From Comamonadaceae bacterium (GTDB lineage Bacteria > Pseudomonadota > Gammaproteobacteria > Burkholderiales > Burkholderiaceae_C), in NCBI GenBank assembly GCA_947448745.1, contig CANFOQ010000012.1, positions 1 through 58,333 on the forward strand: a DNA stretch of 58,333 nt, given 5' to 3'. This document shows, piece by piece, positions 34,158 through 40,134 of this stretch (within the stretch, counting starts at the first letter, position 1; each line of letters opens with the position of its first letter). The position numbers were made by a program, and so were the translations under genes. Under the pieces are notes generated by a model, which made no database searches, was not told the origin of the DNA, and saw nothing but the letters and a program-made list of their open reading frames with translations.

Positions 34158-35726
34158 TTAAATGGCTTTTTCAGTCATTTGCTTGGCGATGTAATCCGCC
34201 TGGCGAATGGCCAAGGTCACGATGGTCAAGGTGGGGTTCTCAGCACCACCGGTGGTGAACTGGGAGCCATCACTGATGAACAGGTTGGGGATGTCATGGG
34301 TTTGACCCCATTTGTTGGCCACACCATCACGCGCATTGGCACTGAGTCGGCAGCTGCCCAGGTTGTGGGTGGAAGGGTAAGGCGGTGTGCGGTAGGTTTT
34401 GATGGCACCCGCCGCTTGGTAAATGCGCTCACCTTGGGTGAACGCGTGGTTGCGCATGACGATGTCATTTTCATGGTCATCGAAGTGCACGTTGGCCACG
34501 GCACTGCCCCACTTGTCTTTCACATTGGTGTTCAGGGTGATGCGGTTGGTTTCGCGCGGCATGTCTTCGCCCACCAGCCACATGCCCGCCAAGTTGGTGT
34601 AGTGGTCCATCCACCATGCGTAGTCGGCGCCCCAAGCACCGGGGTCTAAGAAGGCGGGCATGAAGGCCAGACCCAAGGACAGGGTTTCCATTTCATAGCC
34701 ACCCACAAAACCGCGTTTGGGGTTGAAGGCAGATTCGTCACGGATGATGCCGGCCATGGTGGTACCACGGTACATGTGCACCGGGTCTTTGAACGCTGCG
34801 TACACAGAGCCAGTCATGTGGCGCATGTAGTTGCGACCCACTTGACCAGAAGAGTTGGCCAAGCCGTCTTTGAACATGTTGGAGGCTGACAGCAGCAGCA
34901 AACGCGGTGTTTCAATGGAGTTGCCCGCCACGCAAACCACACGTGCTTTTTGGCGTTGCTCTTTGCCGTCCTTGTCAAAGTACACGACACCGGTGACCAA
35001 GCCTTTGTCGTTGTGTTCAATGCGGGTCACGTGCGCTTCGGGGCGCAGGTCGAGGTTGCCAGTGGCTTCGGCCTTGGGAATCTCGGTGTAAAGCGTGGAC
35101 CACTTGGCGCCGCTCTTGCAACCTTGGAAGCAAAAGCCCAACTGCATGCATCGACCACGGCCATCACGCGGCTGGCTGTTGATGGCCATGTTGCCGGTGT
35201 GCACTTCCTTGTAGCCCATTTTTTTCGCGCCGGCATACATCACTTTGAAGTTGTTGTTGCCAGGCAGGCCAGGAATGCCATTGGTGCGGGTCACGCCCAT
35301 TTTGTTTTCCGCTTTGGCGTAGTAAGGCTCCAACTCGGACAAGGTGACAGGCCAGTCCAGCAGGTTGGCCCCTTTAATGTCGCCATAAACGGTTTTGGCG
35401 CGGAACTCGTGCTCTTGCAAACGCAAAGACGCACCAGCCCAGTGGGTGGTGGAGCCGCCAACGGTTTTGCAAATCCAAGCGGGCAAGCCAGAAAAGTCTT
35501 TGGCCACGCGCCATGTGCCCGAGGTGGTGCGGGGGTCGAGCCAAGCCAATTGACCAAAGGATTTCCATTCGTCATTGACGAAGGATTGGGGGGACTGACG
35601 CGCACCTGCTTCGAGCACCACCACTTTGATGCCCTTTTGACAGAGTTCGTTGGCCAAGGTGCCGCCGCCTGCGCCGGAACCGATTATGACGACAGCACTG
35701 TCGTCGTTGAATGCGATAGAAGCCAT
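34158..35726 (-). CDS. GMC-family FAD-dependent dehydrogenase (large subunit)
   Basis: A 522-residue flavoprotein resembling the large subunit of membrane-linked sugar/alcohol dehydrogenases (gluconate, sorbitol or fructose type). The FAD motif is VVIIGSGAGGGTLANEL at the N-terminus, GGSTTHWAGASLR follows, and the active-site region is PSTHNLGSCRLS (catalytic His) with GAENPTLTI at the end. AGGAG lies 8 bases before MASIAF, fixing the start; the open frame runs 66 codons further up. The small subunit gene is 38 bases upstream, but no cytochrome c subunit is nearby. Substrate unknown. Confidence 0.9.
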   Translation of the reverse strand: MASIAFNDDSAVVIIGSGAGGGTLANELCQKGIKVVVLEAGARQSPQSFVNDEWKSFGQLAWLDPRTTSGTWRVAKDFSGLPAWICKTVGGSTTHWAGASLRLQEHEFRAKTVYGDIKGANLLDWPVTLSELEPYYAKAENKMGVTRTNGIPGLPGNNNFKVMYAGAKKMGYKEVHTGNMAINSQPRDGRGRCMQLGFCFQGCKSGAKWSTLYTEIPKAEATGNLDLRPEAHVTRIEHNDKGLVTGVVYFDKDGKEQRQKARVVCVAGNSIETPRLLLLSASNMFKDGLANSSGQVGRNYMRHMTGSVYAAFKDPVHMYRGTTMAGIIRDESAFNPKRGFVGGYEMETLSLGLAFMPAFLDPGAWGADYAWWMDHYTNLAGMWLVGEDMPRETNRITLNTNVKDKWGSAVANVHFDDHENDIVMRNHAFTQGERIYQAAGAIKTYRTPPYPSTHNLGSCRLSANARDGVANKWGQTHDIPNLFISDGSQFTTGGAENPTLTIVTLAIRQADYIAKQMTEKAI

Positions 35727-35764
35727 GTGTGTTCTCCTGAATTTGTAATCGTTGTGGGGTGGGC

Positions 35765-36391
35765 TCAGCCCATGAAAGGTGCGGGGCTGGCGTCTTTGGG
35801 AGGCGCAGGCAACCATTTCAAATCTTGGAAACCACGGGTGATGTAGCCGCCTTTTTCCCAAGCAGAGCCTGGGTAACCAAATGCGGCGAACGCCATGTCG
35901 TTGTTGTAAACCGAGGTCACGCATTGGCCACGGACCGCACCAAAGAATGCAGAACCTTCCAGGCCTTTGACGATGGCCAATTTTTTGGCGTCACTGGCTT
36001 TCTTGAAGCTGCCACCTGCCAAGCTGTTGAGGTTGCTCAACCCTTCACGCAACATGGCCGCAGTGGCCGGGTCCGCAGAGGCCGAGCCATCCATGTCTTT
36101 GGCCAAGATAGCGTAGACCGCATCGGGCAATTTTTTGTGCGGGTAAATGGTGCGGCCCATGGCCATGAGCGTTTCACCTTCGGCCTGCGACAGGGTTTTC
36201 AGTTCAACGGCCCAAACCGTGGAGGGGGCCAAACCAGCCAACACCGAACCAGCAGCCAAGGTGCCCATCAAAATGCCCGAGCCCTTGAGGAATTCGCGTC
36301 GTGCCAAGGGCAGGTTTTGTTTGGGGACAATGCCGCTTTCTTCGCAGTCGCTGAACTCTGAAGCAACGGGTGCTATGGGAATGGTTCGCAT
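35765..36391 (-). CDS. Gluconate 2-dehydrogenase subunit 3-type Tat-exported small subunit
   Basis: A 208-residue protein with a twin-arginine signal (LARREFLKGSGILMG, then a hydrophobic stretch to about residue 62, VWAVE). The mature part resembles gluconate 2-dehydrogenase subunit 3 (GETLMAMGRTIYPHKKLPDAVY, FFGAVRGQCVTSVYNNDMAFAAFGYPGSAWEKGGYITRGF in pieces). In this family the small subunit carries the folded flavoprotein across the membrane as a hitchhiker. An AGGAG site is seen before the ATG. It is first in the pair with the GMC gene. Confidence 0.88.
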   Translation of the reverse strand: MRTIPIAPVASEFSDCEESGIVPKQNLPLARREFLKGSGILMGTLAAGSVLAGLAPSTVWAVELKTLSQAEGETLMAMGRTIYPHKKLPDAVYAILAKDMDGSASADPATAAMLREGLSNLNSLAGGSFKKASDAKKLAIVKGLEGSAFFGAVRGQCVTSVYNNDMAFAAFGYPGSAWEKGGYITRGFQDLKWLPAPPKDASPAPFMG

Positions 36392-36509
36392 GGATGTCTC
36401 CTGTGTGTTCTAAGTGGATAAGCGAGGTCAGTATTTCACTGCGAAGTGTGTTGCTGGTGGTATGTCGCTAAACACAAGGAAAACCCTGAGGAATAGTAAA
36501 CTCGGCGAC

Positions 36510-37913
36510 ATGGCGTCCAAAGCACCCCCTCCCCTCATCCGCAGCAGCAAGGCTTTTTCGGTGGAAATACCGGAAGGGTCCAACAGCGCGAAATCACGTC
36601 GCAGTGACGTTGTAGCGAATGATGATTTAGACATCAAAAGCAGAGCGTCTCATGTTCATGGGGCTGATGTGGATTTAGAAAAAACCACTGGCACCCATGA
36701 AAAGACTTCGGGTTTACACGTAGGTGGTTTTGGCGAGGATCACCCGACCCACACCAATTTACAAAACATTGATGATCCGCATCATCAAGACAACTTGGCC
36801 ACACTGCCTGGCAACGACAGTCTTGCTTCAACCACCGGACCGAGCATTCAAGCCGATGCAATGAAAGATCGGTTTGCGGGCGGCGAAGCAGGTCATGAGT
36901 TACACGACAACTTGCAAGGCATTGCGCAAGACAGCTTGAAGGACAACCATCAAGGTGTTGGGCAAGATGGATTGCACGACAACTTGCAAGGGGTTGGGAA
37001 CGACGCGCTGTCAGGCAACAAAGCGGGCATCGGCAAAGACGCCATCCAAGACAACTTGCAAGGCGTTGCGCAAGACAGCTTGAAGGACAACCTGCAAGGG
37101 GTTGGGAGCGACGCGCTGTCAGACAACAAAGCAGGCATCAGCAAAGACGCTATCAAGGACAACTTGCAAGGGGTTGGGAACGACGCGCTGTCAGGCAACA
37201 AAGCAGGCATCGACGAAGACGCCATCAAGGACAACTTGCAAGGCGTTGCGCAAGACAGCTTGAAGGACAACCTGCAAGGGGTTGGGAGCGACGCTCTGTC
37301 AGGCAACAAAGCGGGCATCGGCAAAGACGCCATCAAAGACAACTTGCAAGGCGTTGCGCAAGACAGCTTGAAAGACAACTTGCAAGGCGTTGCGCAAGAC
37401 AGCTTGAAAGACAACTTGCAAGGCGTTGCTCAAGACGCTTTGCATGACAACCCCCGGGGTGTGAGCCAAGATGCCTTCCACGATAACCTGCAAGGTTTGC
37501 CAAAAGACAAGCTTGAAGATCGCCAACACGGCGTGGCCAAAGAAGCTCTTCACGATAACCATGCCGGTATCGGCAATGAACATCTTGAAGACCATTTTGT
37601 GGGCTTACCGCCAACCACTGCAACCCCATCAGGTCCCAGCGGCAATGCATCAAAAACCAGTTCGTCTGAGGATGCCAAGCTCCACTCAAGAGATGTTGCA
37701 AGCCATTCAATGGATGTCCATCAACAGCCCCAACATTCAAACACACATCCTGAAGAAACAAGCAAGCACGCACAAGCCTTGTTGCAAGCCAAAATTGAAA
37801 AAGAAAAGAGACTCGAAGAGTTTCATGGCCGCGTGGACGCCATCCGCAAAACCGTCTCGGGCATCAACCACAAATTGGATGAGCTTGACGAGGAAGAACA
37901 TCCCAAGCCCTGA
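36510..37913 (+). CDS. Protein with about twenty 12-residue tandem repeats, function unknown
   Basis: I do not recognise this protein. From the chosen start (MASKAPPPLIR) it has 467 residues with no Cys, Trp or Tyr, no signal peptide and no membrane segment. A disordered, His/Asp-rich head of about 130 residues is followed by 19 full repeats (36906-37589) of consensus DNLQGVAQDSLK, pattern xNxxGxxxDxxx, plus a partial twentieth; then a Ser/His-rich linker and a charged coiled-coil-like tail (LLQAKIEKEKRLEEF...). Three repeat types alternate: QDSLK, DALS and KDAIK. Upstream in-frame ATGs exist at 36414 and 36462, but ribosome sites are poor for all. It is divergent from the dehydrogenase pair. 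Confidence 0.75.
   Translation: MASKAPPPLIRSSKAFSVEIPEGSNSAKSRRSDVVANDDLDIKSRASHVHGADVDLEKTTGTHEKTSGLHVGGFGEDHPTHTNLQNIDDPHHQDNLATLPGNDSLASTTGPSIQADAMKDRFAGGEAGHELHDNLQGIAQDSLKDNHQGVGQDGLHDNLQGVGNDALSGNKAGIGKDAIQDNLQGVAQDSLKDNLQGVGSDALSDNKAGISKDAIKDNLQGVGNDALSGNKAGIDEDAIKDNLQGVAQDSLKDNLQGVGSDALSGNKAGIGKDAIKDNLQGVAQDSLKDNLQGVAQDSLKDNLQGVAQDALHDNPRGVSQDAFHDNLQGLPKDKLEDRQHGVAKEALHDNHAGIGNEHLEDHFVGLPPTTATPSGPSGNASKTSSSEDAKLHSRDVASHSMDVHQQPQHSNTHPEETSKHAQALLQAKIEKEKRLEEFHGRVDAIRKTVSGINHKLDELDEEEHPKP
36906..37589 (+). repeat. 36-bp coding tandem repeat, 19 units
   Basis: Nineteen consecutive 36-base units, each coding 12 residues, such as GACAACTTGCAAGGCGTTGC followed by GCAAGACAGCTTGAAG. The middle units are almost identical at DNA level, including synonymous positions, and form a higher-order 72/108-base pattern; the outer units are more diverged. 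This points to recent expansion by unequal crossing-over or slippage and to probable length variation between strains. Confidence 0.93.
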
Positions 37914-37930: not shown

Positions 37931-39262
37931 CTAGGTGTCGGTGTTCAGGTTTGGCAAGCGCGAGGCCAGCACCTTGTCGATGCGGCGCCCATCCAAATCC
38001 ACCACTTCAAAACGCCAGCCCAACGCGGACACGTGTTCGCCTTCTTTGGGCAATTGGCCAGAGATCATCATGATCAAACCGGCCAAGGTGTTGTACAGGC
38101 CACGGTCTTCCTCGGGCAGTTCGTTCAACTCCAGACGCGACTTGAGTTCTTGCACCGGCATCATGCCGTCGAGCAACCAGCTGCCATCCTCGCGCTGCAC
38201 GGCCCAGGCTTCTTGCGGCAGTGTGGTTTGCACCAACTCGCCGGTGATGGCCTCCAGCAAATCACGCGGTGTCATGACCCCTTGCACCACACCGTACTCG
38301 TCCACCACCAACACCATGCGCCCACTGACCGCAGCATGGTGACCAGGCGTGGTGTTGTGGGGTTTGCGAAACTGCTCGAGCAAGTCCAAACCGGTGAGGG
38401 TTTCAGGCACAAAGGCCGCAGGCTCGGCCCAACTCTCCAGGCTCTCGGGGCTGTTGAATTGGGCCAGCAAACTGGCCATGCTGACCATGCCCACCACATC
38501 GTCCAAACTGCCGCGACAAACCGGATACCAAGAGTGCGTGGCCTGTCCTTGCAATTGCTGCATGGCTTCTTGAACACCCAATGTGGCCTCGAGCCAAACA
38601 ATGTCGGTGCGGGGCACCATCAGCGAGGCCAAGGTGCGTTCATCCAAATGGAAAACATTTTTCACCATCTGGTGTTCATGGCGTTCAATCAACCCAGCGT
38701 CCACACCTTCCACCAAACTCGCGGTGATTTCTTCTTCAGTGACTTGGCGCACCTGCTTCATGTCGATGCGAAACAAATGCAGGATGCCCGTGGTGCTGGC
38801 CGACAACAAATGCACCAAGGGGCGTGCCATCACGGACAAGGCGTACATGGCGGGCGCGGTGAGTCGCGCTGCGGTTTCGGGGTAAATCTGGCCGATGCGT
38901 TTGGGCACCAACTCACCAAACAAAATCGTGTTGAGGGTGATGAGTGTCACCACGGAAATGGTGGCCAGCACATGGGACAAGGTTTCCAACACGCCCCATT
39001 GCATGAACCAAGCAGCCACACCATCGCTGAAAGCCGCCTCGCCAATGATGCCGTTGAGCACCCCCAAGGTGGTGATGCCAATTTGAATGGTCGATAAAAA
39101 CTGGGTGGGCTGCTTTTGCAATTCCAACGCGGCGTGGGCGCCACTGGCACCAGCGGCTTCCAAGCTCACCAACAAGGCTTTGCGGCTGGACGCCAAGGCC
39201 ATCTCAGACATGGCAAACAAGCCATTGAGCAAGGTGAGGAAAAAAATCAGCAGCAAATCCAT
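37931..39262 (-). CDS. CNNM/CorC-type membrane protein (hemolysin family)
   Basis: A 443-residue protein with an N-terminal DUF21/CNNM transmembrane domain (about residues 1-190: MDLLLIFFLTLLNGLFAMSEMALASSRK; FLSTIQIGITTLGVLNG), a CBS-domain pair (MVPRTDIVWLEA; VLVVDEYGVVQGVMTPRDLLEAI) and a C-terminal CorC_HlyC domain (WLLDGMMPVQELK; GWRFEVVDLDGRRIDKV). Family members are linked to magnesium/cobalt efflux or membrane integrity. The start MDLLLIFF is chosen over an open frame 14 codons longer. It is divergent from apaH with only 35 bases between starts. Confidence 0.92.
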   Translation of the reverse strand: MDLLLIFFLTLLNGLFAMSEMALASSRKALLVSLEAAGASGAHAALELQKQPTQFLSTIQIGITTLGVLNGIIGEAAFSDGVAAWFMQWGVLETLSHVLATISVVTLITLNTILFGELVPKRIGQIYPETAARLTAPAMYALSVMARPLVHLLSASTTGILHLFRIDMKQVRQVTEEEITASLVEGVDAGLIERHEHQMVKNVFHLDERTLASLMVPRTDIVWLEATLGVQEAMQQLQGQATHSWYPVCRGSLDDVVGMVSMASLLAQFNSPESLESWAEPAAFVPETLTGLDLLEQFRKPHNTTPGHHAAVSGRMVLVVDEYGVVQGVMTPRDLLEAITGELVQTTLPQEAWAVQREDGSWLLDGMMPVQELKSRLELNELPEEDRGLYNTLAGLIMMISGQLPKEGEHVSALGWRFEVVDLDGRRIDKVLASRLPNLNTDT

Positions 39263-39297
39263 GAGACCCTTTGCAATCGATGAACGACAATCATGCC

Positions 39298-40134
39298 ATG
39301 GCACTTTACTTGATTGGCGATGTGCAGGGCTGCAACGACGCCCTGGGAAAACTTCTGGAGAAATTGCAGTTTTCGCCCAGTCGCGACACCCTGTTTTTGT
39401 TGGGCGATTTGGTCAACCGTGGCCCGGACAACCGGGGTGTGTTGCGCCGCGTGATGGCTTTGGGCAACAGCGCCCAGTGCTTGTTGGGCAACCATGATTT
39501 GCATCTGTTGGCCATGCACTTGGGTCTGCATCCGCTCAAACGTGGCGACACGGTGCAAGACATTTTGCAAGCCCCCGATCGGGACGCTTTGATGCATTGG
39601 CTGCGCCATCAATCCATGGCCTTGCAACAGGGTGAGGTGCTGATGGTGCATGCCGGTGTGTTGCCACAGTGGACCATTGCACAAACCATGCAACTGGCCG
39701 GTGAAGTGGAAAGCGTGTTGCGCAGCGACGATTGGCCCCATTTCATCGCGCAGATGTACGGCAACCAACCCGCGCATTGGCGTGATGAACTGCAAGGCAC
39801 AGAACGTTTGCGGGTCATCGTCAACGCCCTCACCCGTTTGCGTTTTTGCACGCCCGAGGGTGAGATGGAATTTGCCCACCACCGCGGCTTGGATGAAACC
39901 CCATCGGGGTATCTGCCCTGGTTTGATGTGCCCGGTCGTCAAACAGCGCCGCACACTGTTGCGTTTGGTCATTGGTCGGCGCTCAAGCCAATGCAACGAT
40001 CAGATGTGCTGGAGATGGACACGGGTTGCGTGTGGGGCGGGTGCTTGAGTGCTTTGGAGTTGCATGCCCACGGGCCTGGGCAGCACCAGCGCATCGAGGT
40101 GGCCTGCGCCCCAACCAGCCACAGCGCGGCTTAG
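39298..40134 (+). CDS. apaH: Symmetrical bis(5'-nucleosyl)-tetraphosphatase
   Basis: Cleaves Ap4A to two ADP and also removes Np4-type caps from bacterial RNA. The 278-residue calcineurin-like phosphoesterase begins MALYLIGDVQGCNDALGKLL and has the metal-site blocks GDVQG, GDLVNRGPDN, LLGNHDLHLL and MVHAGVLPQW. The start matches the E. coli protein; earlier in-frame ATGs exist at 39280 and 39271 region. Its stop overlaps that of the convergent rhlE by 4 bases. Confidence 0.95.
   Translation: MALYLIGDVQGCNDALGKLLEKLQFSPSRDTLFLLGDLVNRGPDNRGVLRRVMALGNSAQCLLGNHDLHLLAMHLGLHPLKRGDTVQDILQAPDRDALMHWLRHQSMALQQGEVLMVHAGVLPQWTIAQTMQLAGEVESVLRSDDWPHFIAQMYGNQPAHWRDELQGTERLRVIVNALTRLRFCTPEGEMEFAHHRGLDETPSGYLPWFDVPGRQTAPHTVAFGHWSALKPMQRSDVLEMDTGCVWGGCLSALELHAHGPGQHQRIEVACAPTSHSAA

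Follow-up and report, generated by a model that had tools for sequence, protein, structure and literature searches.

What does the long, repeat-bearing open reading frame of the window (the whole stretch of 58,333 nucleotides analysed here) encode, does its product belong to a wider family, and what might that product do? The frame runs on the forward strand from an ATG at 36510 to a stop at 37913 (36510..37913) and encodes 467 residues; both its start and its architecture are those of its relatives, and the relatives beginning MASKAPPPLIRS or MATPPPLIRS agree with initiation at 36510.

A protein with 19 tandem 12-residue units

The protein carries a conserved head containing LIRSSKAFSVEIPEGSNSAK (36522..36647, forward strand; profiles A2, A5 and A8), then 19 tandem 12-residue units which follow one another in register and without interruption over residues 133-360 (36906..37589, forward strand), and finally a conserved C-terminal coiled coil, EEFHGRVDAIRKTVSGINHKLDELDE (37770..37898, forward strand; profile A1). 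Two weaker, degenerate units can be read upstream of the array, at residues 82-105 (36753..36824, forward strand). A preliminary description, made from the DNA letters, had given the array as nineteen full repeats of xNxxGxxxDxxx; all 19 units are there but the strict motif is present in slightly fewer, 17 of 19, whereas 2000 shuffles of the full sequence gave a mean of 0.35 and a maximum of 3. The same description had the units alternating in an A-B-C order that suggested a designed period of 24 or 36 residues, and this order is real, but it is accounted for by duplication of a 180-bp, five-unit block (B-C-A-B-C), present in two copies at 36978..37337 on the forward strand (period 180, 2.1 copies, 93% matches) and spanning 36978-37356 as a tandem repeat, rather than by a designed period. 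Counting bore out the claimed absence of Cys, Trp and Tyr (zero of each, with Asp at 11.6%, His at 6.0% and Gly at 10.3%), and the coiled-coil-like tail was likewise recovered, as a continuous 4-3-4-3 hydrophobic run (F-V-I-V-I-L-L, by reading) in a region conserved among relatives.

That the protein had gone unrecognised agrees with our searches, in which no characterised family or solved structure was matched significantly in Pfam (best E 0.019), NCBIfam (best E 0.0043, like the Pfam match far below curated cut-offs), PHROGs (best E 0.0095) or the PDB, where a sequence search with the whole protein returned nothing up to E 10 and one with the tail gave a best E of 0.042. The highest mean hydropathy over 19 residues is 0.07, leaving no hydrophobic stretch for a signal peptide, anchor or transmembrane segment, and just one of 42 relatives has a 19-residue window slightly above 1.6 (1.67). 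This bears on the idea of a surface or ice-binding beta-solenoid, for which the short period and the Asn/Gln positions would be suitable by comparison with polar-core beta-solenoids (compare HET-s and the available part of PMC3851330), but which is hard to reconcile with a protein that has no such hydrophobic stretch and ends in a coiled coil, and we consider it very remote.

Relatives share the ends and the register of the repeats

Using the window protein as query, matches were found in 49 of 101 genomes, all of them in its own genus and none in the 40 other genera sampled, while a profile of the head matched 69 of 84 Limnohabitans genomes, including 37 of the 40 near-complete ones. An alignment of 46 head and 44 tail matches drawn from 61 sources (42 proteins had both ends) gave a head consensus of [IV][IV]RSxxxHxVxIxEGSxNAK and a tail consensus of EEFHGRVxAIKxxVxxLNxxLDxxE. 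The window protein has the head motif IIRSxxxHxVxIxxGSxNA (E 7.3e-20 in its own genome, with a profile that includes it) and 12/13-residue repeats after it. In Limnohabitans the conserved head and the conserved coiled-coil tail enclose a middle that is variable in both sequence and length, and the unit common to the family is [DA]-N-x-[QA]-x-[VIL], in which position 9 is often D and position 11 often L or I. Anchors of the form N.[QA].[VIL] numbered 585, against 49 expected after shuffling, and the 543 spacings between successive anchors were 12 in 308 cases, 13 in 92 and 24-26 in 76, with 11 and 14 seen once each. Among 389 diverged neighbours, defined as sharing no more than 2 of the 9 other positions, the spacing was 12 in 207, 13 in 81, 14 in one and 11 in none, so that the register persists where the sequence does not, and this speaks for a structural constraint. 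We conclude that the window frame encodes a real protein, a member of an undescribed family with a head of approximately 35 residues, and length-variable repeats in a 12/13 register; in Limnohabitans there is also a short coiled coil at the C terminus, and the signature is N-x-Q-x-[VIL] every 12 or 13 residues.

The spacing does not point in the same direction as the composition. By charge and hydropathy the window protein falls on the disordered side of the boundary, like 30 of 42 middle regions in the family, and this, with the very variable length and composition of the middle, would suit a disordered multivalent linker, whose repeats would be short linear motifs (DNxQxV), each binding a partner, with number rather than fold being what matters. 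Free linkers should however tolerate insertions and deletions, and the 12/13 spacing holds even in diverged neighbours, where 11 or 14 hardly ever occurs; as a periodic partner could still account for that spacing, such a linker is possible, though we think the odds are against it. For the earlier suggestion of a scaffold or novel solenoid the balance is similarly divided, since the conserved period argues for a register constraint but the charge-hydropathy result points to disorder.

A third suggestion was a hydrophilin or LEA-like stress protectant, and the very hydrophilic character of the window protein, its Gly content and its lack of Cys, Trp and Tyr are as expected of one. The LEA repeat is an 11-mer, though, and the window protein has neither an 11-residue repeat, its period being 12/13, nor a Pfam LEA match. 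Taken as minus GRAVY (Kyte-Doolittle) over the whole protein, its hydrophilicity is 0.86, short of the index of more than 1.0 that, with Gly above 6%, is set for hydrophilins in the available part of PMC7448490, and although its own Gly does exceed 6%, the middle regions of relatives show no conserved Gly content (1.6-12.2%). The conserved head and tail and the flagellar-cluster position of relatives, described below, also speak against a protectant, and the preliminary reading on this point is highly improbable.

The window genome is of Limnohabitans type, going by the 38 named family loci, which are titled Limnohabitans, Comamonadaceae, Burkholderiales or Betaproteobacteria, save two whose records are titled Rickettsia typhi (L111) and Bordetella parapertussis (L119); these have a Limnohabitans-type protein that matches like the others and are probably mislabelled environmental MAGs. 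Limnohabitans sp. Jir61 carries the repeat protein twice, at separate addresses (L105 and L117), and one member (L048:5567-6984, genome G040) is split over two overlapping frames, the head in one and the tail in the other, as if frameshifted. Repeat-only hits in five genomes of the genus (G036, G044, G006, G058 and G016) were set aside as long proteins with neither head nor tail; these contain 'ADGEIDDHESSQLQ' stretches which we take to be TerB-like. Long proteins of this kind, with TerB-like stretches, weak repeat-region matches and no head or tail, lie at L032:5355-8252, L044:7596-10325, L046:7640-10435, L070:7169-9151 and L040:5426-7906. Outside the genus the tail profile hit 3 of 399 genomes, of which two hits (L130 and L131) are by reading CpoB-like proteins and not family members, and the third (L132) is apparently a spurious open reading frame.

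A slot in flagellar gene clusters

Four members of the family are 709-769 amino acids long, and the genes of three of them (L063, L066 and L068) follow fliP-Q-R-flhB and a gene for a SPOR protein; in the fourth (L064) the contig ends inside the SPOR gene. As three of the four long members lie behind flhB and the SPOR protein, this slot was examined throughout the genus, its layout being a SPOR/transmembrane protein, the slot protein and a transmembrane coiled-coil protein (which carries an LAVGKRVVELD-like motif), behind flhB where flhB is in view. From 77 loci examined 66 were scored, the 11 unscored ones (L158-L168) being those in which the coiled-coil partner pattern did not match, and at two loci (L193 and L214), where the stretches end near the contig end, no slot ORF was found. 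The slot protein ended in a coiled coil in 57 of the 66 by pattern and in 7 more by eye. It bore the head in 12 Limnohabitans genomes (11 by profile and L139 by eye), and in most scored loci of the genus it was short (126-226 amino acids, with one of 390) and had no head by profile. A tree of head and tail groups the slot copies, adjoining the branch of the window protein, a weak grouping from approximately 70 residues with midpoint rooting.

The slot also occurs outside the genus. A search for the N-terminal part of the SPOR protein matched 6 of 200 genomes of the bacterial family, two from Limnohabitans and four from four other genera, and one for the transmembrane coiled-coil partner matched 18 of 299 genomes, with 12 strong matches (E of 6e-54 or lower) in 5 of 141 genera; the six weak hits (E 1.7e-4 to 9.4e-4) were put down to chance coiled coils. 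All eight loci from the four other genera have a protein of 149-295 amino acids between the SPOR and coiled-coil partners, with FlhB in view in five (L224-L227 and L231), MotA/MotB-like genes by reading in L224, L225 and L227, and inspection confined to the genes adjoining the slot in L228-L230. When 721 ORFs were ranked with the Limnohabitans head profile, five of these eight slot proteins took ranks 1-5, of which only that of L226 was significant alone (E 2.4e-8; L230 E 0.025, L227 0.028, L231 0.16, L228 0.3); L225 came seventh (E 4.8), and those of L224 and L229 were not among the best 19. The tail profile found no slot protein of the four other genera (best E among them 6.1), and most of these proteins have no 12/13-residue repeats after the head.

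The head was also sought in 399 genomes of the order, using a profile to which three heads from outside the genus (including that of G294) had been added. Four genomes matched: the window genome, G294 and two of a second bacterial family, both of which came to light through the head and nothing else (E 2.2e-5 and 7.7e-4). A head profile made only from Limnohabitans ranked the slot proteins of the second family 1 and 2 among 264 ORFs (E 5.6e-6 and 4.1e-5), the tail being marginal (E 0.015) in one of the two. Both lie in the slot behind FlhB, flanked upstream by FliK, FliL, FliM and FliR and at the opposite end by MotA/MotB: BLAST to L225 labels all of these in both loci, together with the SPOR protein and the coiled-coil partner, and labels FliN in one, and FliP and FliQ were recognised by reading. 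These two slot proteins have tandem D-R-x-A-G-G units, mostly 12 or 13 residues apart (28, 40 and then seven spacings of 13 in one; 13, 13, 12, 13, 13, 12, 12 and 24 in the other), by a pattern that was chosen after reading the sequences. Head-bearing proteins thus occupy one flagellar-cluster slot in part of Limnohabitans and in other Burkholderiales, and a restriction of the family to one genus, considered earlier, is overturned by the relatives in four other genera and in the second family.

The three genes form an uncharacterised cassette in the flagellar clusters of several Burkholderiales genera (L224-L231, L236 and L237; L142:6557-9987). Among the matches listed from the open PMC literature, titles and the starts of abstracts gave no account of the repeat protein or of the cassette.

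The window copy lies at a different address

The window gene is not between a SPOR protein and a transmembrane coiled-coil protein. On its upstream side, on the reverse strand, are a divergent gene for 208 amino acids (35768..36391), by reading a TAT-secreted gluconate-dehydrogenase-type small subunit with no Pfam match at 1e-5, and a GMC oxidoreductase gene (34158..35924), while downstream is a convergent, reverse-strand gene for a CNNM/CorC-type protein (37931..39304). The 208-residue type (cluster 13, 9 members) and the CNNM/CorC type (cluster 2) are conserved neighbours of relatives; in the branch of the window protein the repeat gene adjoins CNNM/CorC, and other branches are at other addresses. 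A B12-binding protein (PF02310 in the one tested, L031:7142-8056) is encoded directly upstream of the repeat gene in 15 relatives' loci and not in the window, where the approximately 118 bp at 36391-36510 separate the neighbours.

The window genome (G000) is a MAG, 96.24% complete in 67 contigs, in which FliP, FlhA, rod-type proteins (Flg_bb_rod), the SPOR partner and the coiled-coil partner were not found, so that the absence of flagellar genes is likely, not proven. FliP was found in 77 of 84 genomes of the genus and the coiled-coil partner in 78, and the window genome thus apparently represents a flagella-less lineage in a mostly FliP-bearing genus, one species of which is described as non-motile in the available part of PMC3031073. 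With oxidoreductase and CNNM/CorC neighbours and no partners found in its genome, the window gene is a relative of the slot proteins at a different address and not a member of the cassette. Strict dependence of the head protein on a flagellum was looked for and not seen: the head is present in four (G000, G004, G032 and G040) of the seven genus genomes with no FliP match, three of the four having the coiled-coil partner. Two genomes, one with no FliP (G468) and one with a lower-scoring FliP (G017), have neither the head nor either partner, and in another (G465) FliP and both partners are present and no head was recognised; given these mismatches, the association is strong in place and loose in presence.

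A copy in such a genome could be a decaying relic, a flagellar paralogue left with no present function after loss of the flagellum. The missing flagellar proteins and partners would fit this, as would the codon differences over all pairs among the 19 units (377 synonymous against 954 non-synonymous), which indicate no clear constraint, but the frame is intact, relatives at the same address beside CNNM/CorC also keep an intact copy, and the 23 most similar unit pairs have 22 synonymous and 21 non-synonymous differences (a rough count, as the pairs are non-independent). With closest and overall pairs differing in this way selection within the array is not clear, and we regard a relic as improbable. 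Mobile origin as a phage or plasmid gene was rejected: the few matches, in one phage and four plasmid records, were weak and partial (E 9e-5 to 9e-3) and fell mostly on adhesin or surface proteins, and 41 pattern matches in viral contigs included no relatives.

A possible tether with an adjustable spacer

Our preferred reading of these sequences, to which we give a probability of roughly 45%, is that the window protein is a relocated copy of the family acting as a tether, with an oligomerising tail, a docking head and a variable spacer. The gene would have moved from the slot to its present place, and not the reverse, with expansion of the repeats, and its product would be a soluble cytoplasmic protein. 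The coiled coil would hold the protein together as an oligomer, and may also pair with the coil in the transmembrane protein of the cassette or in some counterpart of it, while the head would dock on a partner and the repeats would serve as a spacer, rod-like or limited by its register, that changes in length over evolution through duplication of units; the disordered-side charge-hydropathy of the window protein and of most middle regions counts against a rigid rod. Since the copy persists in a genome that yielded no flagellar genes, it probably now works not with the flagellum itself but with a partner connected with the cell envelope or pole.

A wider proposal, which we consider doubtful, is that the cassette is an unnamed three-protein module of flagellar clusters with an adjustable spacer made of a new polar repeat fold of 12/13 residues, and that in Limnohabitans the spacer was copied to new addresses and, in the window lineage, taken into a new, non-flagellar use once the flagellum had been lost. 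The results turn an orphan repeat protein into a testable flagellar question, that of the role of three uncharacterised proteins next to flhB. It is a puzzle that the slot protein keeps the 12/13 register while almost all else changes, and with spacings of 11 or 14 all but absent among hundreds of diverged units the repeat is a good candidate for a new fold. A copy in a genome with no detectable flagella would allow the protein's own role to be separated from that of the motor.

Comparison with known systems

Hydrophilins and LEA proteins are, like the window protein, hydrophilic, Gly-rich (in the case of this member) and without Cys or Trp, and differ from it in the threshold, period, conserved ends and flagellar-cluster relatives already described. 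Polar-core beta-solenoids, of which HET-s is one, likewise have short polar tandem units with recurrent polar positions, a likeness in sequence character with no sequence match to the window protein. The mineralocorticoid-receptor repeats, for which the available part of PMC3851330 gives a solenoid model, are about 10 residues long with a Ser-Pro motif, unlike the window repeat. The N-terminal coiled coil of CpoB/YbgF (so named by reading) gave weak tail-profile hits (E 8.3e-6 and 3.1e-5 over 22 positions), and the rest of that protein is unrelated to the repeat family.

FimV/HubP polar organisers have a long acidic cytoplasmic region, as here (from the available part of PMC12918733), but the link to the pole is only suspected for the window protein, which has no transmembrane segment, LysM, FimV domains or match to that family. 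Proteins of the FliK length-control type offer a further parallel. The window protein has no FliK domain in Pfam, and a separate FliK-like gene is present in the clusters of L225, L227 (by reading), L236 and L237, but in both cases a long variable middle lies between conserved ends in proteins encoded, here for the relatives, in flagellar clusters.
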